Below, piece after piece: positions 480-25,399 of a DNA stretch of 26,630 bases (the stretch's first letter is position 1; each line of letters starts with the position of its first letter). The notes under the pieces are model-generated. The model was given only the letters and a program-made list of their open reading frames with translations. It was not told where the DNA came from and ran no database searches. Origin of the DNA: a virus; IMG/VR virus record IMGVR_UViG_3300030117_002201, positions 1-26,630 of that record. One strand, written 5' to 3'. A program made the translations under genes and the position numbers.

Positions 480-760
480 GTCGCACCAAATCATATGTGA
501 TGGACTTGGAAGAGAAGCTAAACGAAAGAGAGCGCGAGATACGCAGACGTAGGCGCGAGCTTGCGGAGTTTGGTGTGAGCGTCAGGACTATCAACAAAAA
601 AGAGTTCGATGAGGATGTGCTTACAAATATTCATGAACGTTTAAACGAAGCTGAAAGTTTAATACGAGCCATGAAAGTTGGACTTCACAGAGCCATTGAT
701 TTAAGGACAGCGTTGTTAGATGACGATAGAAAAAGAGTGGTCAAAAAAGATAAGAAGTAG
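476..760 (+). CDS. coiled-coil protein of unknown function
   Basis: The product has 94 residues and is extremely rich in charge (K, R, E, D). Residues 8-30 (EEKLNEREREIRRRRRELAE) and about 50-75 look like helices able to form a coiled coil. There is no membrane segment, metal site or catalytic motif. The start ATG overlaps the preceding stop in an ATGA junction, and the 3' end overlaps the next gene by 41 bases in another frame. One GTTTAAAC palindrome lies inside it (639-646), encoding part of E-R-L-N-E. I do not recognise a family; context suggests an early or recombination-module protein. Confidence 0.65.
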   Translation: MSRTKSYVMDLEEKLNEREREIRRRRRELAEFGVSVRTINKKEFDEDVLTNIHERLNEAESLIRAMKVGLHRAIDLRTALLDDDRKRVVKKDKK

Positions 761-1001
761 GAAGCACCTACAGTATATCAGGGAACAGGGTTGCCTAATC
801 TGCTATCGCCCTGCACAGGCCCATCACCTGACCTTCGTGGATAGTGATGGCTTGCGTGGTATGCGTAGAACAGGCGATCAATTTGCTGTTCCCTTGTGTG
901 ATGACCATCACCGTCAGCTACACGCACATGGTAACGAGGAAAGATGGTGGGCGATGCAGGGTGTAGACCCGATTGGCTGGCTGTCAGAACAATTTAATTA
1001 G
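720..1001 (+). CDS. HNH-like putative nuclease (DUF968/Ref-like zinc-binding fold)
   Basis: The 93-residue product has a clear metal-binding pattern: C25-x2-C28, H35-H36, then VPLC60-x2-H63-H64-x3-H68, followed by G-N-E-x-x-W-W and a V-D-P tail. This Cys/His layout matches the small HNH-like proteins in alphaproteobacteria and their phages that carry C-L-V-C-G-R, A-H-H-L and V-P-L-C-x-x-H-H-x-x-L-H. It also recalls DUF968 and the RecA-dependent nuclease Ref of phage P1. Its expected role is metal-dependent DNA cleavage, probably in recombination. The ATG at 720 is the first possible start, because an in-frame TAG lies immediately before it; this gives a 41-base overlap with the previous gene. 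Nuclease activity is inferred from family resemblance. Confidence 0.75.
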   Translation: MTIEKEWSKKIRSRKHLQYIREQGCLICYRPAQAHHLTFVDSDGLRGMRRTGDQFAVPLCDDHHRQLHAHGNEERWWAMQGVDPIGWLSEQFN

Positions 1002-1020
1002 GACATATTCGGGAGATCAT

Positions 1021-1644
1021 ATGGCTTATAAGAAAAAAGCTCTGGTGGAAAAAGAACTAGAGATGGCTAACGAAAAGGTGGCGTTCTTAGAAGATCGTTT
1101 AAACGGAATGGAAAGGAGACAGAAAGCAGAGGTAGCGCATGGGCTTGAGTTGCAGACTAAGCTAAATAAAGCGGAAGCCGATTTGCTGGATCAAGAAAAA
1201 ACATCTGCAAGGTTGCGTAGCGCAATGAACAGATTAACTGATAGACCATATAGTGCTACTGATGTTTGGGACTTGGCTTCTCAGATTTCTCTCAAGGATC
1301 TGAGCAATCTGCTGTTTAACTTTAAAGAGTTAGTTAACTACGATCTTGGCCCTATGGTGCATATGGAATTAAACACCGAGTACGATCCTATCTCGGTTGC
1401 CGAAGGAGAAGTCTATGTCAGTTTGACCCTGCCAGAAACTCTATGCGAAGAAGATACGCCCATGACGTTGCAGGATATATTTGCAGACCATGAAGATGAG
1501 GACGATACAGGGGAGCCTATGGCTTATGACCTGAGTTTCGATTACTTCAACAGTCGGTTCGTAGCTACAAGCGTTCATGTTTGCCATGAGCACAAGACCG
1601 TAACGATTGGTTTGGATTCAACTGGAGAGTACCTTGGAGAGTAA
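1021..1644 (+). CDS. unknown phage protein with N-terminal coiled coil and acidic C-terminal half
   Basis: I place the start at the ATG at 1021, preceded by GGGAGAT at 1010-1016. The in-frame upstream start at 973 would overlap the previous gene and lacks a binding site. The product is 207 residues. Residues 4-70 are a heptad-like charged helix (ALVEKELEMANEKVAFLEDR...). Residues 75-110 look globular, and residues 140-170 are very acidic (an E-D-E-D-D run). A GTTTAAAC palindrome at 1097-1104 encodes part of D-R-L-N-G. There is no catalytic motif, signal or membrane segment, and I do not recognise the family. Confidence 0.7.
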   Translation: MAYKKKALVEKELEMANEKVAFLEDRLNGMERRQKAEVAHGLELQTKLNKAEADLLDQEKTSARLRSAMNRLTDRPYSATDVWDLASQISLKDLSNLLFNFKELVNYDLGPMVHMELNTEYDPISVAEGEVYVSLTLPETLCEEDTPMTLQDIFADHEDEDDTGEPMAYDLSFDYFNSRFVATSVHVCHEHKTVTIGLDSTGEYLGE

Positions 1645-2077
1645 AATTGCAGAGCACTTCGAGGCAAAGAAGTATGCTTACAGACAGACTAAAGATGGTG
1701 TCATCTTGAGTTTTGTGCTGCATCCAGATGATGTACCCAAGGAGATGGCTCTTGCCAACATAGGTCAGAGGTACATGGTTGCTTGCGCACAGATAGATGA
1801 CTTCGAGAATCCGATACGCCCAGCAGCTGTAACTGAGGGTGAACGTGCGGTTGCCAGAGCTAATCTGATTTGCAGGGATGCGTCATATCAATCTTGGGTT
1901 AGACGCAACAGAGGCGAGTGGCCCCATGTAGACTTTGAGAATACAACTGACGAAGAATATGCAGCACAGGTAATTAGAAGTGTGTGCAATGTTGAGTCGC
2001 GGTCTGAATTAAAACATAGTGAAACAGCTAGAACGCTTCTATCTGATCACATGAAAGAGTTTGAGAGATCGCTATGA
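1634..2077 (+). CDS. conserved phage protein of unknown function near recombination genes
   Basis: I prefer the TTG at 1634 because GGAGAG (1624-1629) lies just upstream, giving 147 residues and an 11-base overlap with the previous gene. A TTG at 1607 would add nine residues but has no ribosome binding site. The N-terminal segment (Y-R-Q-T-K-D-G-V-I-L-S-F-V-L-H-P-D-D-V-P) followed by I-G-Q-R-Y-M-V-A-C-A-Q-I-D resembles a widespread family of short phage proteins of unknown function. The usual pattern there is K-D-G-x-x-x-S-F-V-I-H-P-x-D-x-P followed by G-T-R-Y. The C-terminal half contains a W-V-R-R-N-R-G segment and helices. Its ATGA junction with the regulator gene downstream suggests co-translation. 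Confidence 0.65.
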   Translation: MESKIAEHFEAKKYAYRQTKDGVILSFVLHPDDVPKEMALANIGQRYMVACAQIDDFENPIRPAAVTEGERAVARANLICRDASYQSWVRRNRGEWPHVDFENTTDEEYAAQVIRSVCNVESRSELKHSETARTLLSDHMKEFERSL

Positions 2078-2337
2078 GTTGGTATGCTGATAGGCTAAAG
2101 CGTCTTAGAACGGATCAGAGGATGTCTCAGCAACAATTAGCTGACAGATCTAACATGACTAAGGCGTATGTTGGACAGGTTGAAAGGGGTGAGCGTAAGC
2201 CAAGCTTCGATGTGGTAGAAAGGATCGCAGCTGCACTGGGCGCGAAGATTTATATCTCGCTTGAGAATCCAGAGCCACCCGCTTTGAACCCAAAGAACAA
2301 ACCGAAAACGTCAATCGCTAGTAGGTTTAACAAATAG
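2074..2337 (+). CDS. XRE-family (Cro/CI-like) helix-turn-helix transcriptional regulator
   Basis: This 87-residue protein has a textbook XRE helix-turn-helix at residues 5-60. It runs L-K-R-L-R-T-D-Q, M-S-Q-Q-Q-L-A-D-R-S as helix 2, T-K-A-Y-V-G-Q-V-E-R-G as recognition helix 3, then R-K-P-S-F-D-V-V-E-R-I-A-A-A-L-G. The C-terminal 27 residues are short, basic and proline-rich, without a peptidase or sensor domain, so it resembles a Cro-type repressor rather than a self-cleaving CI. It is the last gene of the overlapping plus-strand operon (ATGA overlap with the gene before). XRE dimers usually bind palindromic DNA. The repeated GTTTAAAC palindrome and the ATAGGTCAG inverted repeat just behind the gene (2334-2397) are candidate operators, but this is inference. 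Confidence 0.88.
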   Translation: MSWYADRLKRLRTDQRMSQQQLADRSNMTKAYVGQVERGERKPSFDVVERIAAALGAKIYISLENPEPPALNPKNKPKTSIASRFNK

Positions 2338-2342
2338 GTCAG
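2325..2342 (+). repeat. direct repeat copy 1 flanking the GIY-YIG cassette
   Basis: GTTTAACAAATAGGTCAG here matches GTTTAAACAATAGGTCAG at 3152-3169 in 16 of 18 positions. The copy overlaps the last codons and the stop of the XRE gene. The two copies lie 827 bp apart and enclose the endonuclease gene and its leader. Confidence 0.7.
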
Positions 2343-2397: not shown

Positions 2398-2447
2398 AAG
2401 CAGCAAGACCTAGGGCGCAAATTACTCCGTGTCCTTAGAAGCATCGT

Positions 2448-2476
2448 ACCCGCCCGGTGTGGTCGAAAAGGCGGGT
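2448..2476 (+). other. GC-rich hairpin upstream of the GIY-YIG gene
   Basis: ACCCGCC (2448-2454) pairs with GGCGGGT (2470-2476) over a 15-base loop, ending 23 bases before the endonuclease ATG. The last two bases of the stem are the first two bases of a GTTTAAAC palindrome (2475-2482). No run of T follows, so a leader or regulatory structure is more likely than a terminator. Confidence 0.45.
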
Positions 2477-2499
2477 TTAAACGCAACAAAGGTAGAGAT

Positions 2500-3087: not shown

Positions 3088-3112
3088 CTTTTGCCATTTG
3101 AGGCTATAGTAA

Positions 3113-3189
3113 TATGAGAGTTTTTTGACGAAGGTGAGAGGCAGCATCAGCGTTTAAACAATAGGTCAGATGAAGTACGGACTCTCATA
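3113..3189. repeat. inverted repeat between the convergent transcription units
   Basis: TATGAGAGT (3113-3121) pairs with ACTCTCATA (3181-3189), giving a 9-bp stem with a 59-base interior. It lies exactly between the end of the plus-strand genes and the stop of the first minus-strand gene. T-rich sequence (3120-3126) follows the left arm rather than the right, so a simple terminator is doubtful. The interior holds a GTTTAAAC site and the second ATAGGTCAG copy. Confidence 0.45.
3152..3169 (+). repeat. direct repeat copy 2 flanking the GIY-YIG cassette
   Basis: GTTTAAACAATAGGTCAG begins with a perfect GTTTAAAC palindrome and matches copy 1 (2325-2342) in 16 of 18 bases. It lies 64 bases after the endonuclease stop. 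Together the copies look like target-site or recombination scars, or repeated binding sites for one protein. Confidence 0.65.
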
Positions 3190-3370: not shown

Positions 3371-3614
3371 GCTCACCCTCCATGACATCGTTTAAACACC
3401 TAGATATATACACGAAACCATCAGCGTTGAGGATAACTTATACGATATCCTATCGCTGTATTTTTATGACCACTGGTACCCGGAACACAGCAGTAGGTTA
3501 GTAAAGTCGTTTAAACAAACCCGGATAAACACCGTTGTAACGCAGGTATGATAGGTGTTCGCGTTTAAACAAACGTGGTTTTATTACAACAGGAAACAAC
3601 AATACCGCAGTGGG
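3371..3614. promoter_or_regulatory. gene-free strand-switch region with three GTTTAAAC sites
   Basis: I see no coding frame here. It contains GTTTAAAC at 3390, 3509 and 3563. The last two sit in a 13-bp direct repeat, CGTTTAAACAAAC (3508-3520 and 3562-3574), spaced 54 bp apart. Between them AACACC and GGTGTT can pair, and near 3431-3453 AGGATA and TATCCT form a short hairpin. No convincing -35/-10 pair could be settled by eye on either strand. The density of symmetric sites suggests a control region for the genes on the left or an origin-like element. Confidence 0.5.
3508..3574. repeat. paired 13-bp direct repeat CGTTTAAACAAAC
   Basis: The two identical copies occupy 3508-3520 and 3562-3574, 54 bp start to start, which is close to five DNA helical turns. 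Each contains the complete GTTTAAAC palindrome followed by AAAC. They are the only copies in the window with the same 3' extension, so they may form a paired binding site. Confidence 0.65.
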
Positions 3615-3944
3615 TTACTTCTTACCGAACTTCTGCTTCTGTGATTTGGGTGGACTCTTGCTGCTACCGCCTTTGCTCCAGAAAAGTTTGTTTGCCCAGA
3701 AAGCAGCAGATGTTTTTCCCTTCTTTATATTCTTTGCGTGACGAGCCTTGAAGCTTTTACGAGCCTCATCACTGTAGTTGTGTCCCATCTTCTGATCACC
3801 GAATCGAATAATCTTCATCTTGCTACCATCTCTGACAGCAACAACTCCCTTCTTGGTGGGGTGGTTAGGAGTTCTCTTCGGCTTGTTTAAACCTTTCAAG
3901 CCCACTTTCTTCAGCCGGTTCTTTTCCGCATCTGTTAAACTCAT
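3615..3944 (-). CDS. small basic phage protein, conserved in marine phages, function unknown
   Basis: The 109-residue product is strongly basic. The N-terminus (M-S-L-T-D-A-E-K-N-R-L-K-K-V-G-L-K-G-L-N-K-P-K-R-T-P) and the core around residues 60-88 (R-K-S-F-K-A-R-H-A-K-N-I-K-K-G-K-T-S-A-A-F-W-A-N-K) match a small protein I recognise from marine phages, in which the core ends in A-A-Y-W-A-N-K. No function has been established that I know of. The lysine-rich tail suggests contact with DNA or RNA. ATG at 3944 overlaps the preceding stop (ATGA). A GTTTAAAC copy at 3885-3892 encodes G-L-N. It is the last of five consecutive small basic genes. Confidence 0.75.
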   Translation of the reverse strand: MSLTDAEKNRLKKVGLKGLNKPKRTPNHPTKKGVVAVRDGSKMKIIRFGDQKMGHNYSDEARKSFKARHAKNIKKGKTSAAFWANKLFWSKGGSSKSPPKSQKQKFGKK

Positions 3945-4302: not shown

Positions 4303-4310
4303 GTTTAAAC
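4303..4310. promoter_or_regulatory. GTTTAAAC palindrome forming the SD-to-start spacer
   Basis: Read on the minus strand the sequence is TTAGGAGGTTTAAACGTG: the palindrome begins with the last G of the Shine-Dalgarno sequence and ends directly at the GTG start codon. The same arrangement, TTAGGACGTTTAAACATG, occurs upstream of 17103. Confidence 0.75.
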
Positions 4311-6008: not shown

Positions 6009-9000
6009 TATCCATCTGTTCCAAACTTAGCAGCACGTTCAGCCTCTTGATCTTGTCTTCTTAAATTACGCATAATCCTAGTTGTGGTCTGACCACTACG
6101 AGTAAGCTCCCGTATCTTGGCTCCATAGGAATCAAGTACACGCTTGTAGTTGTTTAAACGCCTCATTCTTTCTTCACGAGACAGGCTTTGATCCCGCGCC
6201 ACCGAGTTCATAGCGGCCATGATGTTGCTTTTTTCTCGCTCAATATATGACAGTGATATCTGTATCTGTAGCGGATCTATATTTGATAGGTTCAATCCTA
6301 TGAAGCGCAACAGAGACTGATTAATCGTATCGGTTTCCAGACCATTAGGCTTGGTATTGCCACCTAATGCAGTGTAAAGCTTTGATACTGCTCCATATTC
6401 TGTATTTAAAAATCCCGGCAAAATGTATTGATTCGCTGCCCAAAATAAAACATCTGTTAGCTGACCGCGATTGTAAAATGGACGCTCTATTGCATCTGAT
6501 ATAAAGAATGGATCACTTGGATTTACAATAGGTCTTTGTGTAAATGGATCTAGGTTTTGTGATAAGCCGAACAATGACCATGCTGGCCCCCCAAACATAC
6601 CCAAAGTAGATGTAACATCTTTAATATCAAAACCTTTTTCTGCTGGGCCTTTGTTACCTACCAATGATTTACCAGCAATAGCAGCATCAGATATAAGCTG
6701 TGAAAAAGATCCCCACGGATACAGGTATGCAGTATCTAAGAACTGTAATCGACCTTCTGAATCACGAACAGGTATAGGTATCATGCCGGGGTTGCCCCGC
6801 AAATAATCTGGCAAAGACTGCTTAACATCCTCATATTCATCATCATCTATATCAAACGCCGACATAAACAATGACGGCAAGGCATAAGACAAGGCTACAT
6901 ATGGAGCAAATCTCATAGGATTACGAAGCGCAGTTTTAATTAGTGCAGGTAATACCTTATATTGGAATGTAAGAAACGGTATACCCAATGGGCTTTGTCG
7001 TATTTTACGAACCACCTGTGGCACATCAGAATAATCAAATAGATATTCTTGTGCTCGTAAGAAGCCATCATCTGCACTCAGCCCCTCTCGCTCCATGACA
7101 TCTATATTAATAGCTGTCTTGCCTATAACCTCTATGCCCTGATAAACCTTGCTGGCCTTTTGCGCTAACTTTTGCCAAGTATTTAGCTTTAACCACCCAT
7201 ACATACCTATATCTTTGGCATCGACAGAGCTTAAAAAGTCCATCATATCGTCAGCCATTTGCATAAGTTCTTGATCTGTAAAGGATGTTTGCTGTACGCC
7301 CCGCTTTAACATCTCTGCATAGTGTTTAGAGTTCTCGAAGTCGCCCCGGTTGTATGCTCTCACCTCGTTAATAGCTTCAACGAATCTGGGTATCACCCTG
7401 TAAAATGGCACGCCAGAAAGATGCATCAGTATGGCGTTACTGAATAGGTTTCTAGCTATGGTTGGCGGGTTCAACGGTACTTTGATCGTCTTCCAAACAG
7501 CTGTTAGCTCACGACCCTTCGAGGCAATACCCTGCACAGCAGCATCGCCTAGCTGCAACATAGCTCCTGACGCTATAACATCATCAAATATCTCTGTTCT
7601 AACCAAACGCCCGGACAACAATCCATACTTCTTGTTTTTCGGAACCCGTTTAAACTGATCGCCGTAGCCCTGTAACTCTGCTGCAAACCCGGCATCATCC
7701 AATTGTTCGTAGTATTCTAATGGCTGTAGCCCTTTAGCTATAAATGCATCCCTAACAGCATTCTCCATCTCTACTGCATCTTGAGTTAACTTCGCTGCTT
7801 TATCTGGATCAGCTGCACTAAGCGCATCTGCTATTTCGCGCAGTGTTCTAGCCTCATTAGTCAGATAAAAACCGCTGACCTTGATTGGCTCGCCATTCTT
7901 GCCTATATAATCAACAACAAACTGGTCATCTGCAGTAGTCCACGCATCGTTACCCGCAATCGAATTCATAAACTCTATAAACTGCAAGTCTCGTATGGGT
8001 CTTTGTATAGCTCGTGATACTAAAAACGCAGGATCTAGCTCGTTTATTACACCAAGCGACTCTTGTGACTCTTTTGTCATATCTTTACGAGGCTTTAGAT
8101 AGCTAAATGCTGCGTCTCTCTTGTCCTCTAGTACGTGTTTTATGTATATACGAGGTAAATATGACCTTTTATTTGCAAAGAACGTGCGAGGATTTAGAAG
8201 CCCTTTATTGACCAACTCTAAACCTAAATTTTCTATCAGATCTTTGGCCTTTTCTGATGCAGCTGCTGCTCTAGGATCTAATGCTTTAAGTTGTGCCAGA
8301 ACATTCGCTTCCGCATCTGGCTCACCAGTAGTCAGATAGTTAAATATAGTGGTTCTTAACTGCTCTGTATCAGCACGATCCTTCGGCCCTTTTTTAAACA
8401 GGAATTTATTGCCTATTTCATCGCGCAAAAACTCGGCGACTTTGGTAGATCTACCCACTGTACCCAAATACTCAGCACGACTTAGGTAAAACTCTCGCTT
8501 TTGTGGCAAACCGCCAAGAGTGTTAAAAAACGGAATGTTATTGACATAGTTGATGGCTTTCTGTCTGCCATTCTTCATGACGCCACGGAGGTTTTCTGTC
8601 CCATGATTGGTTACAGCAGCAGCTTCATTCTGCTTTTGTGCGTAATATATTTCTGTTGACTCTATAAGTTTGTCAGACACCCTCATATCGTCTGTAATTT
8701 CGTATACTTTTAGCGCATTACGTTGATTAGAAGTAGCAAGGAAAAAGCTCTCGCTAGTAACGGGTAGCTCCTCAGCAAATCCTTCTTCTTCTCTAGCAAG
8801 ATTTTCTGCATCTATGTCAGCAGTCTCTCTCTGAATCCTGCGTATAATTTCAGCGTCCTGACCTCTATCTGCGAAAGGTATTATTCTAGTTGGTTGATCT
8901 TCAATCTCTGAAAGCTCTATAATTTTTGCAGCTTCTACCCTTCTAGGATCTAAGCTACCTAAATATAATCGCTTGCTAGCGTTGTTATCTCTAATATCTT

Positions 9001-12000
9001 TCTTTGCTTTCTTTATTTGCTTAGGTGTATTGCCAGATAGATTAGCTAAACTAGCCTCTAGTATTTGTGGTACTTTTCTATCGTAAAGATTCTCAAATCC
9101 TGACCCAGCAGGGTAATCAATAGCACCAGTAATCCTGCTTTTCATATCCTTAATTGCTGGAATATCTAGCAAAGACTCCGATGCTAGTTGTTCTGGCGTT
9201 AGTGACTGACCATTTTCTTTTTGTAATCTCAAGTTTTCTAACTCGGCATATCGAGTCTGCAAACTCTGCAACAAATCAGGGGCAAAATACGAACCCGTAT
9301 CACCCATTTGATCTCTAATAATTTTAGCTGTGTTATCTCCAATCCAATCGTCTAACACAGGCTGCATAAAAAAGCCTTCTCGTACAGATACAGGCTGTTG
9401 ATCTCCTAATTGAATCACATTTGATAATACAGATGACTTGATCATTTGACCGTTTTCAAAACGTGCCACTGGCACTGTATAAGCAACAGTAAATTGCGTT
9501 GCTACATTCGGATATTTGCGGGACATAACATCTGAAAATGCTCTTGTAGCAATAGCCGATACTAATCGATCTGCATTAGCATCTGATACGTCTATTTCTT
9601 CACTAAACTCTTTCTCAAACGAGTAATTTAAATTATCTAAATATGATCTGGGATCATCTCTGTTTAAACGATATAACAAAGTACCCTGAGATGGGACATT
9701 GAAAATACTATCTATACGTTGTGTGACACCACTCATCACCTGTTCAGACATATCGGCAGACACATCAGAAATTACATCTGTTGTCGCCTCAGATAAAGGT
9801 ATGCCACCTAACTCTCTGGATCTTTCTGTCAATCCTTCAATGTCTACCTCTGGGCCTTCTGCCAAATAGCTTAATCGATCAGCCTGATCTAATATTTCCT
9901 GTTGGGTAATTACTAATCGTATGGGTTCTGCTACTTCTTCTGCAAATGGATCCATGACATCCTGATCATCGATATGAGTTATTTCTATTTGAATAGCATT
10001 CACACCATCAACCACAGTGCTATCTACTCTACTAGAATATCTATCTGTAAAATCACTTATAGAAAAAGTTCTTTGTATATTAATCCCATCGATATGCTCT
10101 TTGAGTTGGTCTCGATATCTTTCTTTATGTCCCTCGCTACCAACAACAGCAATACGGTCATATCCATTTTGAACAGCCATCCGTGTTATTTGATCTAATG
10201 CAAATGCAAGTCTTTGATTTTCATTCTTCAACGGCAGATCGGGTATTTCTTGACCGTACACCTCATCCCTAAACGAATCCTGCATTTCTCTTACAGTATT
10301 CTTTTCCTCTCTGTTTAAACGGAAAAAATCGGGATACCTTATTGACCCCATTTCAAATAGCTCTTTAGTAGCCATGTCTCTCATAGAGCTTTGTGCTCTC
10401 TGATGCATATCAGATTGTATTTCTTCTATAACCAGAACAACTTCGCCGTTATCTAAAACATAGTCGCTTAGTCGTGCGTGTAATATAGGATTCCTAACGC
10501 CTTTAAAGTGAGCGTGTGTAAATGTAGAACCTTTAGGGTTATCTAGCGTGATGGCAAATACGATCTCTCTGTAATTGAATTGATCAAGAGTGCCAGCAGG
10601 ATATTGTGATTCCGGCACACGATCTAAAAAAGATCTACCGCCCATTTGTGTGAACTTTTTGTAATACCCAACGCCCTGCTCTAACCCGACACCAAAATCA
10701 ACGTCAAATGGTTGTGGGCTTCCTAATGGAGAATCCATCCTCATATCCACGTTTTCTTGTGTTGGATATAAACGAGCAGTCTCTAGGTTTACTAACATTT
10801 GCCCTAATGAAACTAGGGACAAAGCATTGTTTGGATCAGCAATATCTCTTTTTAGTTTACCAGCTAATTCTCTGCCATCTTTCTTTTGCTGGGGTGCAAT
10901 TTCTGCTTCATATGTGGCTATATCATCGATAGATTCTGGTAACGGTAGTTTGTTGATAAGATCCACGATGTCGGGGCTAAATACATTATTATCAACATTT
11001 GGATTAGGAGATCCGTTCACTAATATATTGACTATCTTTTTGAGACTGCCAGCTGCTTCCTTACCCTCATATCGATCCGCTTTAATTCTCAAACTTGTCA
11101 ATGCATTATTAGCTACTGATTCATATGCAAGATCATTACGCTCTTCTTGCAAAGCATCTCTATAAGTCTGCTCACTCTTAGCGTCTTTATCACCTGATCT
11201 CGATATTGGTGTACCGTATATCTGTATCTCTAATACTTTCTCTGTTGCCTCAACAAACTCTTCTAGCTCTTTGCCAGATACAGCCTTGTTCTCAGGCAAT
11301 GTAGCTAGATATGTACCCAAAGCAGAGTCGTTGAACTCTTCTATCTTTACACCCTTGAGCTTGCCAGCAACAAACGACTTTCCTTTAGCATCGGTATCAA
11401 TCCTAGCCCACGCTTCTGGCAACGCTTTGTCGTTACCCAAACTACTTAGAGTGCGCTTTAATTTAGAGTGAAAGGCTGGGCGCATACCTGTACTAGCTGC
11501 TACTGGCCCCTGCTTTATCATGTACAGCGGGGTGCTTGAAGAAAGTCCAGACGTATCTAATATCGGGCCGATCTCTTTTCTTAGATCTTTTACAGGCCCA
11601 ACATCAGGTGTTCTCGCACCGACACGGCCTTGACGAACCTGATTGAATATATCCTCTATCTCTGCTGGCAAACGCTCACCCGTAAAAGCTGCCCTAAGCT
11701 GTTTAAACAGTTTAAGAATCTTGCTAAATATACGGCGCAGCGGTGGATTAAACTCTGCTGGAACCTTGCCATCTATATCTAGGCCACGGTTATACAAAGC
11801 AGACGAGTATGCGACTAGCTCGTTTAGCTGTTGGAATGGATTTAACCCATCCATAGCCCTGTTAAACTCTTTATCTCCAAGCTGTCTGCGTACTATGTCT
11901 TGCATACGCCCAACGTTAGCTTGTAGATCTTTCAGTTCTTGTGCGTTGAAAAAACCATTGTTGAATAAGAAGTGTGTTGCTTCATGGTATGCGCGGTTGT

Positions 12001-15000
12001 TGGTATCTAAGAAGCCATCTGTTGTTAGAGATACGGCAACAAGATTGCCAGCCTGTAAGCCTAACGCTTCTTGCATTGAGACTTCTTTGCCATTGATGTT
12101 AACGGTCTGCAAATTAGGATCATCCATCGATCTAGCTGGACCAAACAGCTGTGAGGCAACTTCTATCCTAGCTGTTGGCGCAATAGACTTAATGACCTGT
12201 ACAACTCTGTTGAATTCGTTGATATCAAGTGGTGCTTTAGACTTAACAACACCCGGCCCTAGCTCCGTCATTGTGCCAGCGACCATTTCTCCAGCTACAG
12301 GCTGACCAGTTTTTAACGCAAAATCTAAATCTTTAGCTTGATCAAGAGCATCCAAGTATTCGTTAGCAGAAGAAAAAGCGTTTCGAGCAGAGTCGTGATC
12401 CATACCACCCTGCCTGTATTCGTTATATAGCTTAAGAGCCAGACCCAAAACGGCTGCATCTTGCTTGCCCTCTAAATCTATTAAAACATCTTCGCCTATA
12501 TCTTGTTTTTCTCTTTCAGATAAAACAGTTTTAGGTTCTTTCTTTAGTTTCCGCTTAGTCTTTTTTTCTTCCTTTGCAACCTCTTCTTGTGTCGTTGTTT
12601 GTTCTGTTCTTGGATTGATTTGCGGTACTGAAAAAACAGATTGATTTGCTGCTCTTGCTGCCTCTCCTTGTTCTTTTACTTTTGATCTAACATCTTGCCC
12701 TAATTCACGAATAGTATTTTCTGAAAGATTAAGGCCAGTGCGTTCATAATAATCTATCAAATCCCCCATAATTTCTTGATCAGCTTTAGATCTGCTGCGG
12801 GGATTACCTACAATGTATAAAGCCTTATCTAGTAACGAATCAAATACAGGGGTTTCATCTCTATATTTTGGCTTAGATTTCTCTACACGATCAGATATAA
12901 ATTCGTCGGTAGTAGGCTCATCTTGTATCTCTTCTTCTAATATCTCTTCTGTAGCCTCTGCCTCTGGAGGTCGTGCATCTTTTGCCTCTTGCTGTGCAGA
13001 TGCAGCTGCTGCTGCCTCTTCAATAGCTTGCTTGCGACCCTCTTCACGAAGCTTATTCTCAGCTTCTTCCTGCTTTCTTTGCTCGTTTAAACGCTTTTTA
13101 GTTTGTTGGTGCTGCTGCACTACATCTAATAAATCTATCTTCTGCTGATTGGTCAGCTGTGCTAGATCTGTATCAGGGCTTCCTGTTACCTGTTGTATAT
13201 AATTCTTTCTATCTTTCTTGCTTACCTTTTGTTTCTTTATCTCTCTTTCGATAGCAGATGTTTCTATCTGTGTCTGTAGAGTCTCTGATTCTTCACCTGT
13301 TAAAGCAGCCCTGCCCAATACTGTTGTGGGGTTAGGCTCGTTGATAAGTCCACTCAGGGTCTGTTCGATATTGTCTGATAGGTCGCCACTATCTACCGCC
13401 TCGGTAGTTTCTGCGTCTTGTAATATGCTTGCGACACCGACCTCTACATTGGATTTATAGTCTGGGTTGCGTCTTTCTTTTTCTTTCTCTACTGCCTTGA
13501 GGTTATATACGCTATCAGGCTTGGCTTGCGCCTGTGCTTTGTCACCCTGTTGTGTAGCTTTGATTGCATCCTTGAGAGTAATGTTGCCAGCCTCTACCTG
13601 TGGCAATAACTCTGGCGATACGAATGGCTTTAGCCCCTCTTCGTAAAGCTCTTGTGTAGTCATCTCACCTACAGCTTTATCATTAATGCGATATTTAGGA
13701 CTGAGCAAATCAGCATCACTAGCAAACGACAGTCCAGTATCGGGGTCTACCGTCTGATTCTTGGGCAGATAGGCTATGTCCTCGTCGTTAACTAATACTT
13801 TGACCTTATCGCCTTCTACTCCCAATACTTGCGCTGACTGCATATTGCCATCTGCATCGTATACAGATATTGACTGCTCACTCTGCTGCATCTCTGCAAG
13901 CTGTTCATCTGATAGAGCTGGTAAATCTGGGGCAGACTCAAGCTCTTGTCGTAGCTGCTTTTCTGACTTGGGATATTTAACTTTGCCACGTACAAGTAGA
14001 TCAAAGATCGCACCTGCACCAGCACCATAACCAAAGTCTGACAACATACTGTCAGTCAATGGCATATCAGGATCATAGTTATTTCGGGCTGCAAACTTTT
14101 GCAAGAACCCTGCTACCAATTCCTGACCGCCTTCAGCTATACCTGTAGTGGATGCTTCCGCTAATCTTTGGACTACCTGACTCTTTACATTCTGCCCGAT
14201 AGTTTTGGGTATACCACGGAGAACCATCTCTACTGGCAAGAGTTCTAAGAATCCTATCGGCACACCTAACGCTATAGCTAGGTTACGTTGCCCTACCGTG
14301 TAATCATTGCCAGCTGCTTTGTATGCTTCTATCAGTGAGCTTGCTTCACCCGCTCCAACCCCCGGCGCAAAAGCACCGTACTGTATGCCTTTCAATCCCT
14401 TGGCTAACTTGTTGACACGAGTAGCTGCTGCTGCATATTCGCTACCCTTAGCTGCAAGTGCTGCCCCTCTACTGGCTGCTCCAGCTGCCCCTAGTCCGGG
14501 TACAGCAAATAACAGTATGCTTCCTAGAGCTTCTGCCAGTTTGCCTACGACAGTCTCTTCATTGCCTACAAAAGCTTTTGCTTCTTGTAATGCCTTGAAT
14601 GCTTCTGATGACTCAGGATCTAGCGCATCTTCAAAGCCCGCTACATTAGTTACGGTATCTGCTATTGAGAATAAACCCTCTCCGATAGTGAGTGCAGTCT
14701 GACCTACACCTCTAGCTATGCCTCTTGGTACAGCCAGTAATGGGTTTTGACTTTCTTCTTCTTCTATTACTGGCAATGGGGTTTGAGCAAAGCCAGTTCC
14801 AAAACCTGCAAATAAATCTGGAACTGTTTGCGGATCAGGAGAGGGTCGCGGTGGCACAGCTGCCTGTGATTGGGAGATCGGGGCTTGTGCTGCTGCACCA
14901 TCCGCGAAAAAACTACCGGGCTGTATTGGAGATAATGTTTGGTTTATTGCTCTTAACTGGCTTCTTCGTGGCGGTACGTCGAATTGCGATACCGCATTAG

Positions 15001-15055: not shown

Positions 15056-17103
15056 TAAAGAGGAATGTTGCTTGTTAAATATTCGTCATTTAGCCAAGGA
15101 AAATCTTGTTTGAATTCTATTCTTGCTTTTTTCTTAGCCTCTGCATCTGGTGCGTTTGCTATCTCTGCAAGTTTATCACCATATTTATAAAGCACAGCAT
15201 CATATCCAACTTCGTTATTTTTGTTGAAATCTGCTTTAACTAAACCTCTAGCTATCCTAGACAGTTCTTGTGGACTAGCACCGGGATTTGCCTCTTGAGC
15301 TACCTTATAAAATTTAGCTAGTCTCGGTATGATGACCTCAAACGACTGATTTACTAATCGTCTAGCCTCTGGAACATATCTCTCTTCAAAACCACCAGCT
15401 GCTAATCTTATTCTAGCTTGTTCTATTGGAACAGTAAGCTGCTGTTCTGTTTCAGTAAATTTCAAAGCTGTATTATTAAAACTATTGATAGATGCGTTTA
15501 CATCATCTGCAATTTTTCTAAGATCCTCTGCCTCTGCTTTAGATACATCTAATCCAAGCCGAAGTGCTTTAAATAAGTTGTCTTGCATACCCTTATTTAT
15601 TGCTATTGCATTAGCATCTGCTGCTGTCCTATAAGTTGCCTCTAGCTTACGAGCGTCATTAATACGCTTAAGATTGTCTTGTTGTCTTTGATAAGCCGTA
15701 TTAGCTTTATCTTTCTCTCTTCCGTAAGCATCAATAGCGTACTGATAAAGTTCTTTCTGCTCTTGACCAGAAAACTTATTCATCACATTAGATGCGCCAG
15801 CCAAACCTCTTGATATTGTTTCTATAAAACTAGGTGTTGCGTTCCCTGCTGCATTAAAAAATGCAGATGCTACACCAAGATCTGTTTGCTTTTTAATTCT
15901 TTCTTTAATGTTGTCTTTACTTGGTAGCTCGTTTTCCAATTCTTTTAGCTTGTTAAGAGAGTTATCTACTTCGGTCTTGTATTGCTTTTCTCTAGCTATT
16001 AAATCACTAAACATCTGATTGCTAACGCCTGTAGCAGTTTGTTTAAACGTATTAGCTCCCACACTATCTTGCGTCCCGCCGACAGGAATCGATGAATCTG
16101 CACTAGCTAATCGCGCCAAACCAGCAAATTGAAAATTATCCATAGCCCTTGGGTTTGTTAAAAACTGCTGCATCAACTGACTATAGGTGGGAAGCGTTTT
16201 AACATTTACTGGCCCTTGTCCACTTTGACCTAAATTAGATGATTGATCTTGACCTGATTGACTATCCTCAAGTGCTGCATCTACCTGATTATCTGTCTGC
16301 CCAGATGTAACAGACGGTTGCTGTCCACCTGTAGGCGTCCCGCTCATTGGAACGTTTAAACTAGGTCTTGTTAAAACAGGTGGCAAACCTTCTCGCATAC
16401 TTGAAACTGCTCTGTAAGTTTCATCAAATGGTTTTATTAAAGCCGTATCACCCGGATCAGATAATCCCAAAGCTCTTCCAAATCTACTGGACTTTGCTAG
16501 TCGCGCAAGGTTTCCAAGTGCTGATGCACCAACCAACCCTAAATCCACTACACCAGCAGCTGACTCCAACGCGCCAATTCCAAATTGTTTTAGCGCAGTT
16601 CTATCATTTATTGATTGAACAAGCTGCTCTTGTTCAGCTGGAGACAAGGATCGATATTGATCCTCAGTTACGCCAACGTTTTCTAATGCACCGAAAAAGT
16701 TAGCTAAATTATTATTCTGTAACCCTATAGTTCCCTGCGTTCCTGATTGGAATCGTCTAACTAACCCGCCAACCTTTGCCATAGGCATTGGTGCTGGCTG
16801 CATAGACTGCAATGTCATCATCGGATTAGGCATAGGCTGTTGCATCTGAGGTTGCATCGGGCCTTGTGCCATAGGGCCAGCTGGCATAGTGGGACGCATA
16901 GCTGTAGCCAAAAGCTGATTTATGACAGGGGGCTGTGGCATATTCTGCATAGCAGAAGCTTCTTGCCTAATATCATTACGAGCTTTCATTTCACTCGCAG
17001 CGATAACTCCTTCGATCCCTCCAGCCTGTGTTAGCTGGGCTAGAGCTTGATCTGGCAACCCCTCTGTTCTATCCGCAATCCTAAGTAGATCTTCCATTGC
17101 CAT
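15055..17103 (-). CDS. virion-associated protein, Met/Pro/Gln-rich N-terminal region
   Basis: The 682-residue product shows three parts. An N-terminal helical segment (about 1-50) is followed by a low-complexity M/P/Q region (about 52-110, repeated P-M-x-x-P-M-Q) ending in K-V-G-G-L-V-R-R-F-Q-S-G, a motif seen in marine-phage internal or tail proteins. A hydrophobic patch lies near 175-205, and a long helical, coiled-coil-like C-terminal half has many charged residues. ATG at 17103 follows TTAGGAC with a GTTTAAAC palindrome as spacer. The end overlaps the giant gene by one base (TAATG), so the two are probably co-translated and act together, for example as ejected internal proteins. That role is inferred; I find no enzyme motif. 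Confidence 0.72.
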   Translation of the reverse strand: MAMEDLLRIADRTEGLPDQALAQLTQAGGIEGVIAASEMKARNDIRQEASAMQNMPQPPVINQLLATAMRPTMPAGPMAQGPMQPQMQQPMPNPMMTLQSMQPAPMPMAKVGGLVRRFQSGTQGTIGLQNNNLANFFGALENVGVTEDQYRSLSPAEQEQLVQSINDRTALKQFGIGALESAAGVVDLGLVGASALGNLARLAKSSRFGRALGLSDPGDTALIKPFDETYRAVSSMREGLPPVLTRPSLNVPMSGTPTGGQQPSVTSGQTDNQVDAALEDSQSGQDQSSNLGQSGQGPVNVKTLPTYSQLMQQFLTNPRAMDNFQFAGLARLASADSSIPVGGTQDSVGANTFKQTATGVSNQMFSDLIAREKQYKTEVDNSLNKLKELENELPSKDNIKERIKKQTDLGVASAFFNAAGNATPSFIETISRGLAGASNVMNKFSGQEQKELYQYAIDAYGREKDKANTAYQRQQDNLKRINDARKLEATYRTAADANAIAINKGMQDNLFKALRLGLDVSKAEAEDLRKIADDVNASINSFNNTALKFTETEQQLTVPIEQARIRLAAGGFEERYVPEARRLVNQSFEVIIPRLAKFYKVAQEANPGASPQELSRIARGLVKADFNKNNEVGYDAVLYKYGDKLAEIANAPDAEAKKKARIEFKQDFPWLNDEYLTSNIPL

Positions 17104-17111
17104 GTTTAAAC
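17104..17111. promoter_or_regulatory. GTTTAAAC palindrome adjacent to start codon
   Basis: The whole gap between two virion genes is 11 bases (17104-17114) and eight of them are GTTTAAAC. On the minus strand the order is TTAGGAC, then TTTAAAC, then ATG, matching the arrangement at 4303-4310. Confidence 0.75.
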
Positions 17112-19450: not shown

Positions 19451-19458
19451 GTTTAAAC
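19451..19458. promoter_or_regulatory. GTTTAAAC palindrome at a gene junction
   Basis: It lies between the GNAT-like start (19449) and the stop of the gene upstream (19453), overlapping its final codons. With the bases downstream it forms ATGACATCGTTTAAAC (19443-19458 on the plus strand), identical over 16 bp to 3382-3397. Confidence 0.7.
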
Positions 19459-19992: not shown

Positions 19993-22694
19993 CAACCAAA
20001 CCTCCTAGCAACATTTATGGGTACTGAGGGAACAAAGGCAGCTGTTTGTGTTTGTTTTGGCAATGCGGCTAATGATGTTGCTAACGTATTTATCTGCTGT
20101 TGCAAGCTTGAAGGATCAAATGCCGTAGGCAAATCCGCTGCTGTAAGAAATGAAGATGTATCAAATGTTGGCAAATCAGCTGCTGTTAAAAATGCGGATG
20201 TATCCACTGCTGCCGGTAGATCCGCAGCCGTTAAGAAACTAGACGTATCGATTGCAGCTGGTAGATCAGCCGCTGTTAAAAATGCAGATGTATCTATTGC
20301 TGCCGGAAGATCTGCTGCTGTAAGGAACGACGATGTATCTACTGCCGCTGGTAAATCAGCTGCTGTTAAAAATTGTGATGTGTCAATGGCTGTAGGTAAA
20401 TCAGCTGCTGTAAGAAAACTACTCGTATCAAATACTGGGAGATCTGTTGCAGTTAAAAATTCGCTTGTGTCGAACGTTGGTAAATCACTAGCAGTTAAAA
20501 ACTGGCTTGTATCAATTGCCTCATATGTAGGCAAATCAGCAGCCGTCAGGAATTCGCTAGTATCTATTGCAGCTGGAAGGTCAGCTGATGTAAGAAACTG
20601 TGAGGTGTCTATTGCAGCAGGAAGATCAGCTGTTGTTAAAAAATTACTTGTATCAATACCCGGATCAAAATCAGATAACGCTGTACTTAAATCGTCTGCA
20701 GTAATAAAACCTGTTGTGTCAATACCGGGGTTGAAATCAGATAAAGCTGTACTTAAATCATCTGCCGTAATAAAACCTGTCGTGTCTATACCGGGATCGA
20801 ATCCTGCCAATTCAGTGCTAAGATCTTCAGCGGTAATAAAGCTACTTGTATCAATACCGGGATCAAAATCAGTTAATGCAGTACTTAGATCTTCAGCTGT
20901 AATAAAGTCACTTGTGTCGATACCGGGATCGAATTCCGATAAAGCTGTACCCAAATCATCTGATGTTATGAATTGAGTAGTGTCAACTCCAGAAAAAGGA
21001 TCGAAGTCATCTAATTGTGTAGTGAGATCCTCTGCTGTAATAAAGTCAGTTGTATCTATACCCGGATCATATTCAGATAAAGCTGTAGTTAGATCATCTG
21101 ATGTTAAAAATTGGGTTGTGTCTATGCCGGGATCAAAAGGATTTGCCTCCAAATAATCAGCTATATAATCATCTATATCGTCTGCCAAAATATAATCATC
21201 TAAATTAAAACCAGCAGCATCTCCACCCGGAATTCCTGTTCCTGTAGTACCCGCACCCGTTGTAGTCGTTGTGCCTGTAGTACCCATACCCGGCTCTCCC
21301 GGTGTTTGTCCCGGTGTAGTCGTTGTGCCTGTGGTATTCCCACCCTCAAAATCAGAACCCAGAGCACCCCCCGGATCTTGGTTCGGATCAGTGGTAGCAT
21401 CTGTAGGGTCAGATGTAGTTGTGGTTGTAGTCTCCTCTACTAAAGTTTCTGGCAATGCAATCGGTGTACTTTCATATGTCGTTCTTGTAGCTGTTGGATC
21501 GCCAAATAATCTTCGGTTGTAATCTATAACAGGAGCATCTGCAAAACCCCTTGTGCCTAACGTCAGTGGCGTGTCCAGTGCTCTGGGAGTAAATAGTTGA
21601 TATTGCTCAGTGCCTACCGGAGTTAAATTTTGAAATATAGAATCTCCAGCAGCTTGGGCTGTTGTATTTGCCGTACCGCCTACCGCTGGATTAAACGGGC
21701 CTGTCGTTGGTCCATATAAAGGATCATCAGCGTTTTCTAAATATTGAGTACCCGGCCCACCTACCGGACCACCTGTTTGAAAAGCCCTCGTATAACTGAA
21801 TGGGTTAGCAAAGTAATCTTTCTCTGACGATCTGCCACCTCTTGCTACAGCAGGGAATCTGACACCTCTATCATCAAGAGTTACAGGAACATAAAAGTCA
21901 TCATCATCATCTGCCATACCCAACGGCATATTCATTAAGTTGTATTGATCAGTTAGCCCCTGACCTGTAAGAGCAGCTGCGCCGATAGACCCTAGTTCTC
22001 TAGGAGTTATAGTCGCAAATTCACTACCTATTTTTTGGAATATATTTTGTGTAGCAGCATCTGTTATAGGTTTATTAACAGCAGCCCTGCCAGCCTCTTG
22101 CAAAGTTTGAGCAGCAGCTGGACTAAATCCCAATGGAGCTTGTGTTGCAATATTTGATAAAACATTCTGCCCACCGACACCAGCAGCCTGTTTAAACGCT
22201 TCACTCCCTCCCGTTTGGAGAAGTTCAGAACCCCCCTGTTGAACCAATTGTTCTGTAGTTTGTTTAGTACCTTCTTTTAAAAGCTCCTGACTACCTTGTA
22301 GCCCCTCTCCCAAAAACTTACCACCAATACTGCCCAGCACTCCGCTTATAAGACCGGCCTTTAACCCCTCCTCTAAACTTCCTGTTTCGATTGCTGTGCC
22401 AACACCAGAACCTATTGCAGCTAATCCAGTGGCTCCTCCAAGAACTCCTAACGCTCCTATTGGAGCTGTTGCTCCCAGCAAACCACCACCTAATGCTAAC
22501 AATAATGGTAGAAAAGCTTCTGGTTGGCCTGTATCGGGATTTATAGTGAGCGCATTATTTGGGGTCATAGATCGTAGAACATCTACTTCTCGCGGGTTCA
22601 TGTGAACCAACATCGAGTCTCCATATCTACCCTTAGAAGCCAACATATCAGCTTGTTGTTTAAACGGCTGATCTTTCTGGAATGCTCTATTCAT
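19992..22694 (-). CDS. large repeat-rich virion protein
   Basis: The product is 900 residues. The N-terminus contains Y-G-D-S-M-L-V-H-M-N-P-R-E, then I-N-P-D-T-G-Q-P-E-A, a motif familiar from marine phage virion proteins. A long Gly/Ala/Leu-rich hydrophobic stretch follows (about 65-130) that could contact membrane. A Thr/Gly-rich linker lies near 410-490. Then come seven 22-residue repeats centred on D-P-G-I-D-T-x-x-F-I-T-A-x-D-L and about a dozen 13-17-residue repeats centred on I-D-T-S-x-F-L-T-A-A-D-L-P. The start ATG at 22694 has only a weak binding site, with a GTTTAAAC palindrome 16 bases upstream. Two more copies lie at 22190 and 22658 inside the gene. The architecture suggests a fibrous or ejected protein; the exact role is unknown. 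Confidence 0.75.
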   Translation of the reverse strand: MNRAFQKDQPFKQQADMLASKGRYGDSMLVHMNPREVDVLRSMTPNNALTINPDTGQPEAFLPLLLALGGGLLGATAPIGALGVLGGATGLAAIGSGVGTAIETGSLEEGLKAGLISGVLGSIGGKFLGEGLQGSQELLKEGTKQTTEQLVQQGGSELLQTGGSEAFKQAAGVGGQNVLSNIATQAPLGFSPAAAQTLQEAGRAAVNKPITDAATQNIFQKIGSEFATITPRELGSIGAAALTGQGLTDQYNLMNMPLGMADDDDDFYVPVTLDDRGVRFPAVARGGRSSEKDYFANPFSYTRAFQTGGPVGGPGTQYLENADDPLYGPTTGPFNPAVGGTANTTAQAAGDSIFQNLTPVGTEQYQLFTPRALDTPLTLGTRGFADAPVIDYNRRLFGDPTATRTTYESTPIALPETLVEETTTTTTSDPTDATTDPNQDPGGALGSDFEGGNTTGTTTTPGQTPGEPGMGTTGTTTTTGAGTTGTGIPGGDAAGFNLDDYILADDIDDYIADYLEANPFDPGIDTTQFLTSDDLTTALSEYDPGIDTTDFITAEDLTTQLDDFDPFSGVDTTQFITSDDLGTALSEFDPGIDTSDFITAEDLSTALTDFDPGIDTSSFITAEDLSTELAGFDPGIDTTGFITADDLSTALSDFNPGIDTTGFITADDLSTALSDFDPGIDTSNFLTTADLPAAIDTSQFLTSADLPAAIDTSEFLTAADLPTYEAIDTSQFLTASDLPTFDTSEFLTATDLPVFDTSSFLTAADLPTAIDTSQFLTAADLPAAVDTSSFLTAADLPAAIDTSAFLTAADLPAAIDTSSFLTAADLPAAVDTSAFLTAADLPTFDTSSFLTAADLPTAFDPSSLQQQINTLATSLAALPKQTQTAAFVPSVPINVARRFG
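20118..20666 (-). repeat. about twelve tandem coding repeats of mostly 42 bp
   Basis: The core is A-I-D-T-S-x-F-L-T-A-A-D-L-P, with small length changes (F-D-T-S without the preceding I, or an inserted Y-E). It looks like the 22-residue repeat next to it with the T-A-L-S-D-F-type segment removed, so the two arrays probably arose from one another. The array is coding, not CRISPR, because the reading frame is kept throughout. Confidence 0.85.
20667..21134 (-). repeat. seven tandem 66-bp coding repeats (22-residue units)
   Basis: The units follow D-P-G-I-D-T-T-x-F-I-T-A-x-D-L then T-x-L-x-x-F. Unit 3 carries two extra residues (D-P-F-S-G-V-D-T). Many acidic residues recur at fixed positions, which would allow divalent metal binding but does not prove it. 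Confidence 0.85.
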
Positions 22695-22710: not shown

Positions 22711-22718
22711 GTTTAAAC
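22711..22718. promoter_or_regulatory. GTTTAAAC palindrome in the 25-base gap between two virion genes
   Basis: The gap 22695-22719 holds one copy, flanked symmetrically as GCGTTTAAACGC, a perfect 12-bp palindrome. It is 16 bases upstream of the ATG at 22694. Confidence 0.75.
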
Positions 22719-23055: not shown

Positions 23056-23234
23056 TACGACATGAACCACGACATTGCAGATGATTCATCTTCAACATCT
23101 TGTTTTGATGGTATCAACTCAAAAACAATACGAAGCTGATTTATTAATCGCAGCATATAGTCCTCTTGATATTCTACAGTCGGTAACTCTAAAGGCAGTC
23201 TATGCTCTGCGCCGCTTGCAGTTTTAGTTGTCAT
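23055..23234 (-). CDS. 59-residue protein between structural genes
   Basis: A short gene reading M-T-T-K-T-A-S-G-A-E-H-R-L-P-L-E-L-P then V-E-Y-Q-E-D-Y-M-L-R-L and ending A-M-S-W-F-M-S. Its ATG overlaps the stop of the structural gene upstream by four bases (ATGA) and its TAA overlaps the next ATG by one (TAATG), so both ends are locked into the operon. This explains why no other frame fills 23056-23230. The product is one amphipathic helical domain without cysteine, signal or membrane segment. Virion assembly is a guess from context. Confidence 0.78.
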   Translation of the reverse strand: MTTKTASGAEHRLPLELPTVEYQEDYMLRLINQLRIVFELIPSKQDVEDESSAMSWFMS

Positions 23235-25078
23235 CGCCTTCCATCCTGCCTCACATCAAGACGAACATCGCCAAGCCTCCAACCGTTCTGAATATCTGTG
23301 CTTTCTACTCTGACTCTAACTTGCCTAGCTCTAGCTCTAACGTTAGATAAGGCAAACTCGCTAGTAGTAGTAACTGATGTTGTGGACTCCGATGTTAGTG
23401 TACCACCAGCGTTATCTCTAGTTTTAATCGTATAATTTAAAGTTGGGCTATCTGCAGACCCAACAAAATCACAATCAGGTAATAACCTTCTTACAAATGC
23501 AAAATGATCTCCATCATCAATATCAAAATCAGCTGTTTCTATAAATGCTGTTAATGCAGAACCATCATCATCGAATCCAATTTCATGCTCAAATAAATAT
23601 CCTACATCATTAGTTGTTTTTACAGCTATTGGATTATCAGTTGATGCACCTGCATCATCCCAAAAATCTCTTTCTAACGTTGCTATAGTCCAATGATTTT
23701 CAACATAGTTGTACACAACCATTGCATTTAACGTTGTTGAGTCACCTGTTGGATAAAACCAACCAACCTCATTAAATCCTGTATTAGCAAATGCAACTAT
23801 TTGATTTGCTTGTATTTGATTTAAATTGTCAAACACATAAGCACGAACAGTACATGGCAATACTTTTGCTGATCCCGAATAAACATAAAAGTTTCTACGA
23901 TCCATAAAAAATATTACATTGTTTGCTGTAATAGCAGCATTCTGCGATATCAAACTAACGCCATCTGTTATTAAGTTAGCCTTAAAAATAAAAGGTGCGC
24001 CTACAAACTGGACGCTATATAGTGCTGCATCAGTCCATATTGCTACTTCTTGTCTACCTCTCAATGCACCAATAATTTCAGATCCTACAGAAAGTCTTAA
24101 ATCTCCAGCTGTATTAGTAGTTTTAGGAGTCCAATCTAATACGTTCTCTTGCGTACACCATCGTATCTGCATTAAATCTATATTACTTTCACCAAATGGG
24201 TTACATCCAATCGCTAATACATGACGATCTTGTGTTGATACAACTATCTGTAAGCACTCAGTTGGTGGATTATCATTGCCAGATATAGCAGTAAGTTCTA
24301 AAGCTCTGTTAGTTGGATTCGTAGCATCCCACAAATAAATAGATCCGAGTCTTGGGTTTAATACCAAGTCCTCTCCAAAGTTATCTAAGCTCCACAATCT
24401 AAGAGTATTAGTAAGTGTATCACCAGAAGATGTACCCCATGTTCCAGCACCCCAAGGGCCAGCACCCCAGCCACCACCGGGAACTGCCACATCCAATCCA
24501 ATATTTATTTGATATGCAGCTACAGTGCTGCTTCCACCATTACCTGTGTCGCTACTATTAGCCGTTACCGTAGAACCTGATGTATCTTTAGCTGTAAATG
24601 TAAAAGCATTAGCAGAACTAATTTCTGTAATTTCATACTCTTGATTTAATACAGCTGCTGTTATATTGCCGCCTAAACTAGCTGCGCTACTAAAAGTAAC
24701 AAAATCACCAAGCACTGCTCCATGACCTGTTTCATTACACGTAATAGTTGATGATCCATCGCTAGCAGAAAAAGTTGGATCTCCTGCGTTAGTTGTTAAA
24801 CGTATTGGTGTTACATCATTAAATACATTACCAGAAACAACATATGTTTTTTTAGTTGTGCCTAATCCTATATATCTAATACCCGCCAAAGATACCCATT
24901 GTTTTATTTTTCTACACACACCAACAAAACTAGAAGTAAACTTTTTTTGCCACCCCCCCATTTTTTCTGGCTTGCCAGATCTAAATCTTACAAACGATCC
25001 ATCATAAAACCTTCCTTCATTACTGTAGGCAGTACCTTCTTTGTAAATTCCCGGCTTGAAATTAAATCGCTTTAACAT
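23231..25078 (-). CDS. phage structural protein, probable tail hub or head-tail stabilisation protein
   Basis: The 615-residue protein begins M-L-K-R-F-N-F-K-P-G-I-Y-K-E-G-T-A-Y-S, then G-R-F-Y-D-G-S-F-V-R-F-R-S-G-K-P-E-K-M-G-G-W. This N-terminus is highly conserved in a family of tailed-phage structural proteins that I place near P22 gp10-like stabilisation/tail-hub proteins. A Thr/Ser-rich insert (about 97-190) resembles an immunoglobulin-like surface domain. It is followed by the characteristic glycine/tryptophan hinge P-G-G-G-W-G-A-G-P-W-G-A-G-T-W-G. The rest is beta-rich with V-A-I-W-T-D-A-A-L-Y and V-V-Y-N-Y-V-E-N-H-W. The start ATG abuts the previous stop without a clear Shine-Dalgarno sequence. 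The equivalence to gp10 is tentative. Confidence 0.8.
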   Translation of the reverse strand: MLKRFNFKPGIYKEGTAYSNEGRFYDGSFVRFRSGKPEKMGGWQKKFTSSFVGVCRKIKQWVSLAGIRYIGLGTTKKTYVVSGNVFNDVTPIRLTTNAGDPTFSASDGSSTITCNETGHGAVLGDFVTFSSAASLGGNITAAVLNQEYEITEISSANAFTFTAKDTSGSTVTANSSDTGNGGSSTVAAYQINIGLDVAVPGGGWGAGPWGAGTWGTSSGDTLTNTLRLWSLDNFGEDLVLNPRLGSIYLWDATNPTNRALELTAISGNDNPPTECLQIVVSTQDRHVLAIGCNPFGESNIDLMQIRWCTQENVLDWTPKTTNTAGDLRLSVGSEIIGALRGRQEVAIWTDAALYSVQFVGAPFIFKANLITDGVSLISQNAAITANNVIFFMDRRNFYVYSGSAKVLPCTVRAYVFDNLNQIQANQIVAFANTGFNEVGWFYPTGDSTTLNAMVVYNYVENHWTIATLERDFWDDAGASTDNPIAVKTTNDVGYLFEHEIGFDDDGSALTAFIETADFDIDDGDHFAFVRRLLPDCDFVGSADSPTLNYTIKTRDNAGGTLTSESTTSVTTTSEFALSNVRARARQVRVRVESTDIQNGWRLGDVRLDVRQDGRR

Positions 25079-25399
25079 TTATTTTTTACTCATGTATGCA
25101 GTAGCACCAAAATACAGTCCTACTACCGATGCCTGACTCAAGAATAACATATCACTCAAAGATGCTAGAGTGTTTAAACGTTCTTCTGGTATAAAAGGTA
25201 GTAATGGCAATAGCGCAAAAACACACATAGATATCATTGCAACCCACGCCATTTTTTTTTGTGAGTCTGCTTTTTCTTCTTGCAATTCTAGCTGCAACAT
25301 TTCTTGGTGCTTAGTAAGCTCTTCGTCGGTAACAGTACCATCACCATCTGTATCATATTCAGCGTATCTTGATTTTGGCTCTAACTTTTTAGGAGTCAT
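25079..25399 (-). CDS. EF-hand protein with two membrane segments, holin candidate
   Basis: Residues 16-27 form a complete 12-residue EF-hand loop (D16-T-D18-G-D20-G-T22-V-T24-D-E-E27), which in other proteins binds calcium. A charged helix follows (about 28-48), then two membrane segments (about 50-70, M-A-W-V-A-M-I-S-M-C-V-F-A-L-L-P, and 83-103). Proteins with this EF-hand plus two-TM plan occur in marine phages. A small two-TM protein is also the shape of a holin, but this one sits among head/tail genes 20 kb from the lysozyme. A GTTTAAAC copy at 25172-25179 encodes R-L-N between the two TM segments. The start ATG overlaps the previous stop by four bases. Confidence 0.75.
   Translation of the reverse strand: MTPKKLEPKSRYAEYDTDGDGTVTDEELTKHQEMLQLELQEEKADSQKKMAWVAMISMCVFALLPLLPFIPEERLNTLASLSDMLFLSQASVVGLYFGATAYMSKK

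Follow-up and report, generated by a model that had tools for sequence, protein, structure and literature searches.

An exact DNA octamer dispersed in unrelated bacterial viruses tracks the zinc ribbon of a SprT-like protein, its candidate reader

We found that several unrelated groups of bacterial viruses, including actinophages, carry dozens of copies of one exact 8-bp palindrome, GTTTAAAC, and that across these groups the presence of the octamer tracks a phage-encoded SprT-like protein, specifically its C-terminal zinc ribbon (KQ[GST]TR..K..C..). We propose that this ribbon probably binds the octamer as a gene-control switch, although binding and its effect on transcription are inferred from sequence. 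The starting point was a window comprising bases 1-26630 of a 28,715-base IMG/VR viral contig (IMGVR_UViG_3300030117_002201), for which a first-pass annotation had reported 23 copies of the palindrome, had argued that selection acts on the DNA rather than on the encoded protein, and had suggested the HIP1 palindrome of cyanobacteria and the stoperators of mycobacteriophage L5 as parallels. The over-representation was confirmed. The interpretation, in contrast, was only partly supported: selection on DNA holds, the HIP1 parallel fails for the host classes tested, and the stoperator parallel is plausible as a way of working.

Enrichment, exactness and conservation of the octamer

GTTTAAAC occurs 23 times in the window, whereas 100 dinucleotide shuffles gave a mean of 0.52 and a maximum of 3 copies, and Markov models predicted 0.66 (order 0), 0.51 (order 1) and 1.09 (order 3). 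It is the top 8-mer of the window, the pattern read backwards occurs 0 times, and the last 2 kb of the contig hold no further copy. Of the 37 TTTAAA in the 28.7 kb contig, 23 lie in GTTTAAAC. The sites, given without strand, are as follows:

639..646, site in ORF 476-760
1097..1104, site in ORF 973-1644
2475..2482, intergenic site, 17 bp before the start codon of ORF 2500-3087
3152..3159, intergenic site
3390..3397, intergenic site, 1 bp before the start codon of ORF 3191-3388 (-)
3509..3516, intergenic site, paired with 3563 (54 bp apart)
3563..3570, intergenic site
3885..3892, site in ORF 3615-3944 (-)
4303..4310, intergenic site
6152..6159, site in the 3015-aa ORF 6008-15055 (-)
7648..7655, site in the 3015-aa ORF
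9662..9669, site in the 3015-aa ORF
10313..10320, site in the 3015-aa ORF
11701..11708, site in the 3015-aa ORF
13085..13092, site in the 3015-aa ORF
16041..16048, site in ORF 15055-17103 (-)
16354..16361, site in ORF 15055-17103 (-)
17104..17111, site abutting the start codon of ORF 15055-17103 (-)
19451..19458, intergenic site, 1 bp before the start codon of ORF 18979-19449 (-)
22190..22197, site in ORF 19992-22694 (-)
22658..22665, site in ORF 19992-22694 (-), paired with 22711 (53 bp apart)
22711..22718, intergenic site, 16 bp before the start codon of ORF 19992-22694 (-)
25172..25179, site in ORF 25079-25399 (-)

Among the genes carrying sites, the 3015-aa open frame (6008-15055, -) has no PHROG match, and the product of 3615-3944 (-) is a small basic protein of unknown function (cluster c9), found in all contigs compared of groups A and B (see below).

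The closest relative of the window contig, a 54 kb contig (G001), has 48 copies, and other long contigs of the same group (group A), of 42-58 kb, have 38-47. In six group A contigs, there are 236 copies against 6.2 expected, whereas nearly all one-mismatch variants are at or below expectation. In contig G010 (57% G+C), all 37 TTTAAA are GTTTAAAC. Copies in coding DNA use only the two frames without an in-frame stop, in a ratio of 183:169 across 15 contigs.

The sites are conserved position by position, far beyond neutral expectation. Between contigs G002 and G003 (83% identity), 19 of 21 sites are perfectly conserved; between contigs at 58-62% identity, roughly 40% are perfect and almost none have one mismatch, whereas neutral decay would leave one-mismatch sites commoner. 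Furthermore, third bases of conserved amino acids are identical in 57/58 cases inside octamers against 73% elsewhere between G002 and G003. Selection therefore acts on the DNA.

Distribution among viruses and cellular genomes

The first-pass annotation had named relatives sharing the proteins but not the motif as a finding that would count against it. Relatives with 54% identity or more in one structural protein almost all share the motif, whereas more distant ones (47% or less) lack it completely. Pattern scans of viral contigs identified further carriers, namely the actinophage-like group B (with WhiB and a Streptomyces-phage-like terminase), group C (distant kin of group A), group D (G010), group E (G015) and others. 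False positives of these scans were G408, with repeats in one gene, and L394 and L400, with short arrays. A partial scan of genome contigs for triplets gave mostly local repeats.

GTTTAAAC is not a host motif in the classes tested: in 371 alpha- and gammaproteobacterial genomes, a set that left out actinobacterial hosts, it reaches at most about 0.05 per kb against about 0.85 per kb in the phages. A mild cellular enrichment was seen in an Aquimarina MAG and an Omnitrophota MAG, with 382 and 289 copies, about 9-11 times the reversed control.

A SprT-like zinc ribbon as candidate reader

Across groups A, B, C and E, the shared protein family was a SprT-like metallopeptidase (phrog_6361). Its phage form ends in a zinc ribbon in which Q, T, R, two Cys and an Arg are the only invariant residues of the family alignment, Q, T and R forming an invariant Q-x-T-R arm. 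HExxH is present in groups A, C (G014, G016) and E and in the isolates, but is lost in group B, in which the gene is often reduced to the 53-58 aa ribbon alone, matching phrog_34373, a family of unknown function; this group has the highest local motif density. The Pfam SprT profile (PF10263) matched above the cut-off only for phage Bernstein and below it for the others, whereas phrog_6361 matched strongly. The predicted model of the G001 protein (mean pLDDT 83) places the start of the K-Q-x-T-R arm in a low-confidence stretch before the ribbon, and its best solved-structure match is 6mdx, titled 'Mechanism of protease dependent DPC repair', a weak match to SPRTN (Foldseek E 0.016, probability 0.84). 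The predicted structure of the mini-protein alone was poor (pLDDT 56).

We then examined cultured phages encoding SprT, of which Venkman and R5C were picked for their SprT before counting, Venkman only for its ribbon. Methylophilales phage Venkman has 34 copies of GTTTAAAC (control 0) and Dinoroseobacter phage R5C has 17 at 61.5% G+C (0.04 expected), followed by Mica with 7, ep3 with 4, Mano with 4 and F_TK1718 with 2. The cultured actinophages had no GTTTAAAC enrichment but instead carry a one-base variant, GTGTAAAC, with 41 copies in Henoccus (22:19 on the two strands), 39 in Bogota, 21 in Crewmate, 17 in Emotion, 17 in Caron, 17 in Maureen (15 in the 40 kb first analysed) and 14 in Percival, control 0; expectations for Henoccus, Emotion, Percival and Maureen were 0.02-0.19. 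The ribbon of Caron and Crewmate is inferred from tblastn matches only. By contrast, three phages whose SprT keeps the protease but lacks KQxTR (CN1, Epa5 and Bernstein) have 0-1 octamer, and five relatives in which a profile search found no SprT (DSL-LC04, HTVC027P, MinM2, JXY1 and WRightOn) have 0-1 copies of either octamer.

However, the correlation is not complete. Some motif-rich contigs show no ribbon, namely G010 (37 copies), G412 (26), G405 (12) and the G403 family (SprT core only), all possibly incomplete or diverged, and G407 has a variant ribbon. Gram-negative isolates such as ep3 and Mano have only 2-7 copies. The isolate set is small, not phylogenetically independent and analysed without phylogenetic correction, and another co-inherited gene is not fully excluded.

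Other repeats were observed in some of these phages. Arthrobacter phage Emotion carries seven copies of a longer, parS-like palindrome, GTTTCACGTGAAAC, separate from the GTGTAAAC sites. In E. coli phage ep3, AACAANNNTTGTT occurs 7 times against 0.14 expected and is probably the operator of another regulator. In Pseudomonas phage Epa5, whose SprT lacks KQxTR, CCCTGGGC occurs 53 times against 9.9 expected, so that a different motif may be in play. Phage MinM2 has many copies of a CTGAACCGGA/TCAGCCTGAA-type repeat.

Position of the sites

Octamers are about five-fold denser between genes (3.5/kb) than in coding DNA (0.69/kb), and sites within 35 bp before start codons number 48 against 10.1 expected in group A and 11 against 1.5 in group E. 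In the window, 5 of 9 sites outside the curated ORFs lie within 17 bp of a start codon. An octamer lies within 120 bp upstream of sprT in 42 of 59 genes (10.9 expected; the set is not fully independent, and start codons were chosen automatically), and about 10-18 bp upstream in Mica, Mano and F_TK1718, whereas the nearest site in R5C is 381 bp from sprT. In Emotion and Maureen, 7/17 and 4/15 octamers, respectively, lie 0-1 bp after the -10 box of TTGCGT-N17/18-TAGACT-like promoters (0.03 and 0.02 expected), a repeated promoter also found upstream of sprT. Thus, sites were found where an operator at the protein's own promoter is expected. The arrangement directly after the -10 box was found only in these two actinophages, and adjacency of sigma70-like promoters to the sites in groups A-E was about at chance level.

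Proposed role and alternatives

The explanation we favor, with moderate confidence, is that GTTTAAAC is the binding site of a phage-encoded DNA-binding domain, the C-terminal zinc ribbon of the SprT-like protein (phrog_6361; stand-alone form phrog_34373), read by a flexible KQ[GST]TR arm plus the ribbon. The protein would probably bind next to its own promoter, resulting in autoregulation, at the +1 region or in short gaps before start codons of other genes as operators, and at many sites inside genes, where it may act as a transcription roadblock like the L5 stoperators. The window contig carries the sites but does not include its sprT gene, which in this view lies beyond the end of the contig and is seen in G001 (18140-18745), outside the part that aligns to the window. 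Our analysis demonstrates the enrichment, exactness, conservation and position bias of the octamer and its correlation with the domain, whereas binding, repression and roadblock action are inferences.

More broadly, it appears somewhat more likely than not that tailed phages of different bacterial phyla share a sequence-specific DNA-reading zinc-ribbon family, attached to or freed from a SprT-like protease, each with matching octamers across the genome (GTTTAAAC, or GTGTAAAC in the cultured actinophages) that serve as a genome-wide regulatory or protease-targeting code. If so, this would give a function to two unknown phage protein families (phrog_6361 and phrog_34373) and to the SprT-like proteases annotated in many Arthrobacter and Microbacterium phages, provide a 55-residue sequence-specific DNA-binding module with two apparent specificities, and show a dispersed-operator system shared by unrelated phages that is directly testable in cultured phages (Venkman, R5C, Emotion and Henoccus).

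Among the alternatives, the one that survives best, although we consider it unlikely, is that the octamers are address labels bringing the SprT protease to phage DNA to remove DNA-bound proteins (host silencers, defence proteins or crosslinks), as SPRTN does, with gene control being secondary. The HExxH motif in groups A, C and E and in the isolates, the match to 6mdx and the spread of sites over whole genomes, also in late genes, are compatible with this possibility. However, group B lost HExxH or the whole protease domain yet has dense sites, and sites lie at promoters and upstream of sprT.

It is also unlikely that another co-inherited DNA-binding protein reads the motif, with SprT as a hitchhiker. 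In group A, the candidates are the XRE protein (window 2074-2337), encoded in all six contigs, and a double-HTH protein (cluster c53), encoded in five, but neither family was found outside group A, and loss of KQxTR, not of the whole SprT gene, goes with loss of the motif. The product of ORF 1607-2077 was likewise rejected as a shared factor, being present in groups A and C plus one motif-free phage.

Very unlikely, in our assessment, is that the motif is the target of a phage modification enzyme (an orphan methyltransferase or base-exchange enzyme), with the enrichment marking self DNA. Sharp all-or-none specificity is typical of enzymes, and some carriers (G005, G015 and L112) appear from sequence to encode methyltransferases, but none was seen among the subset of proteins of G001, G012 and G010 scanned against Pfam, a search that was not systematic, and the placement at promoters and upstream of sprT would remain unexplained. 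Finally, a HIP-like or Chi-like genomic signature of shared hosts, suggested by the exact palindrome, the high copy number and the coding copies, is least likely given the lack of enrichment in the proteobacterial genomes counted, the different phyla infected by the carriers and the sharp differences between phage relatives.

Comparison with known systems

In the literature search, no paper contained two of GTTTAAAC, GTTTACAC, GTGTAAAC and the phrase 'bacteriophage genome'. The stoperators of Cluster A mycobacteriophages (L5 gp71-type repressor; PMC9283540) similarly comprise dozens of short sites dispersed over one phage genome, in promoters and in short intergenic gaps. However, the L5 sites are asymmetric 13-mers oriented with transcription and read by a two-domain HTH/Stoperator repressor, whereas here the site is a palindromic 8-mer with many copies inside genes, the candidate reader is a SprT zinc ribbon, not an L5-type repressor, and the carriers include a phage, R5C, described as lytic, without integrase or repressor genes (PMC5454422). 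HIP1 of cyanobacteria (PMC4390886) is also an over-represented exact octameric palindrome occurring in coding DNA, but it is a property of host chromosomes tied to orphan methyltransferases, whereas the octamer described here is a phage property and is not enriched in the host classes tested. The start-associated sequences and intergenic repeats of actinophages (Microbacterium clusters EC, EF and EG; PMC7302621) are conserved repeats just upstream of start codons as well, but they are other sequences, in 5-12 copies, intergenic and with no reader named, and no GTTTACAC motif was found in the parts of that work consulted. For the SprT/SPRTN DNA-dependent metalloproteases, no sequence-specific site turned up in our searches; they have an HExxH fold with a C-terminal zinc-binding domain, which the phage proteins that keep HExxH appear to share (weak structure match to 6mdx), but the phage forms can lose the protease and keep the ribbon.
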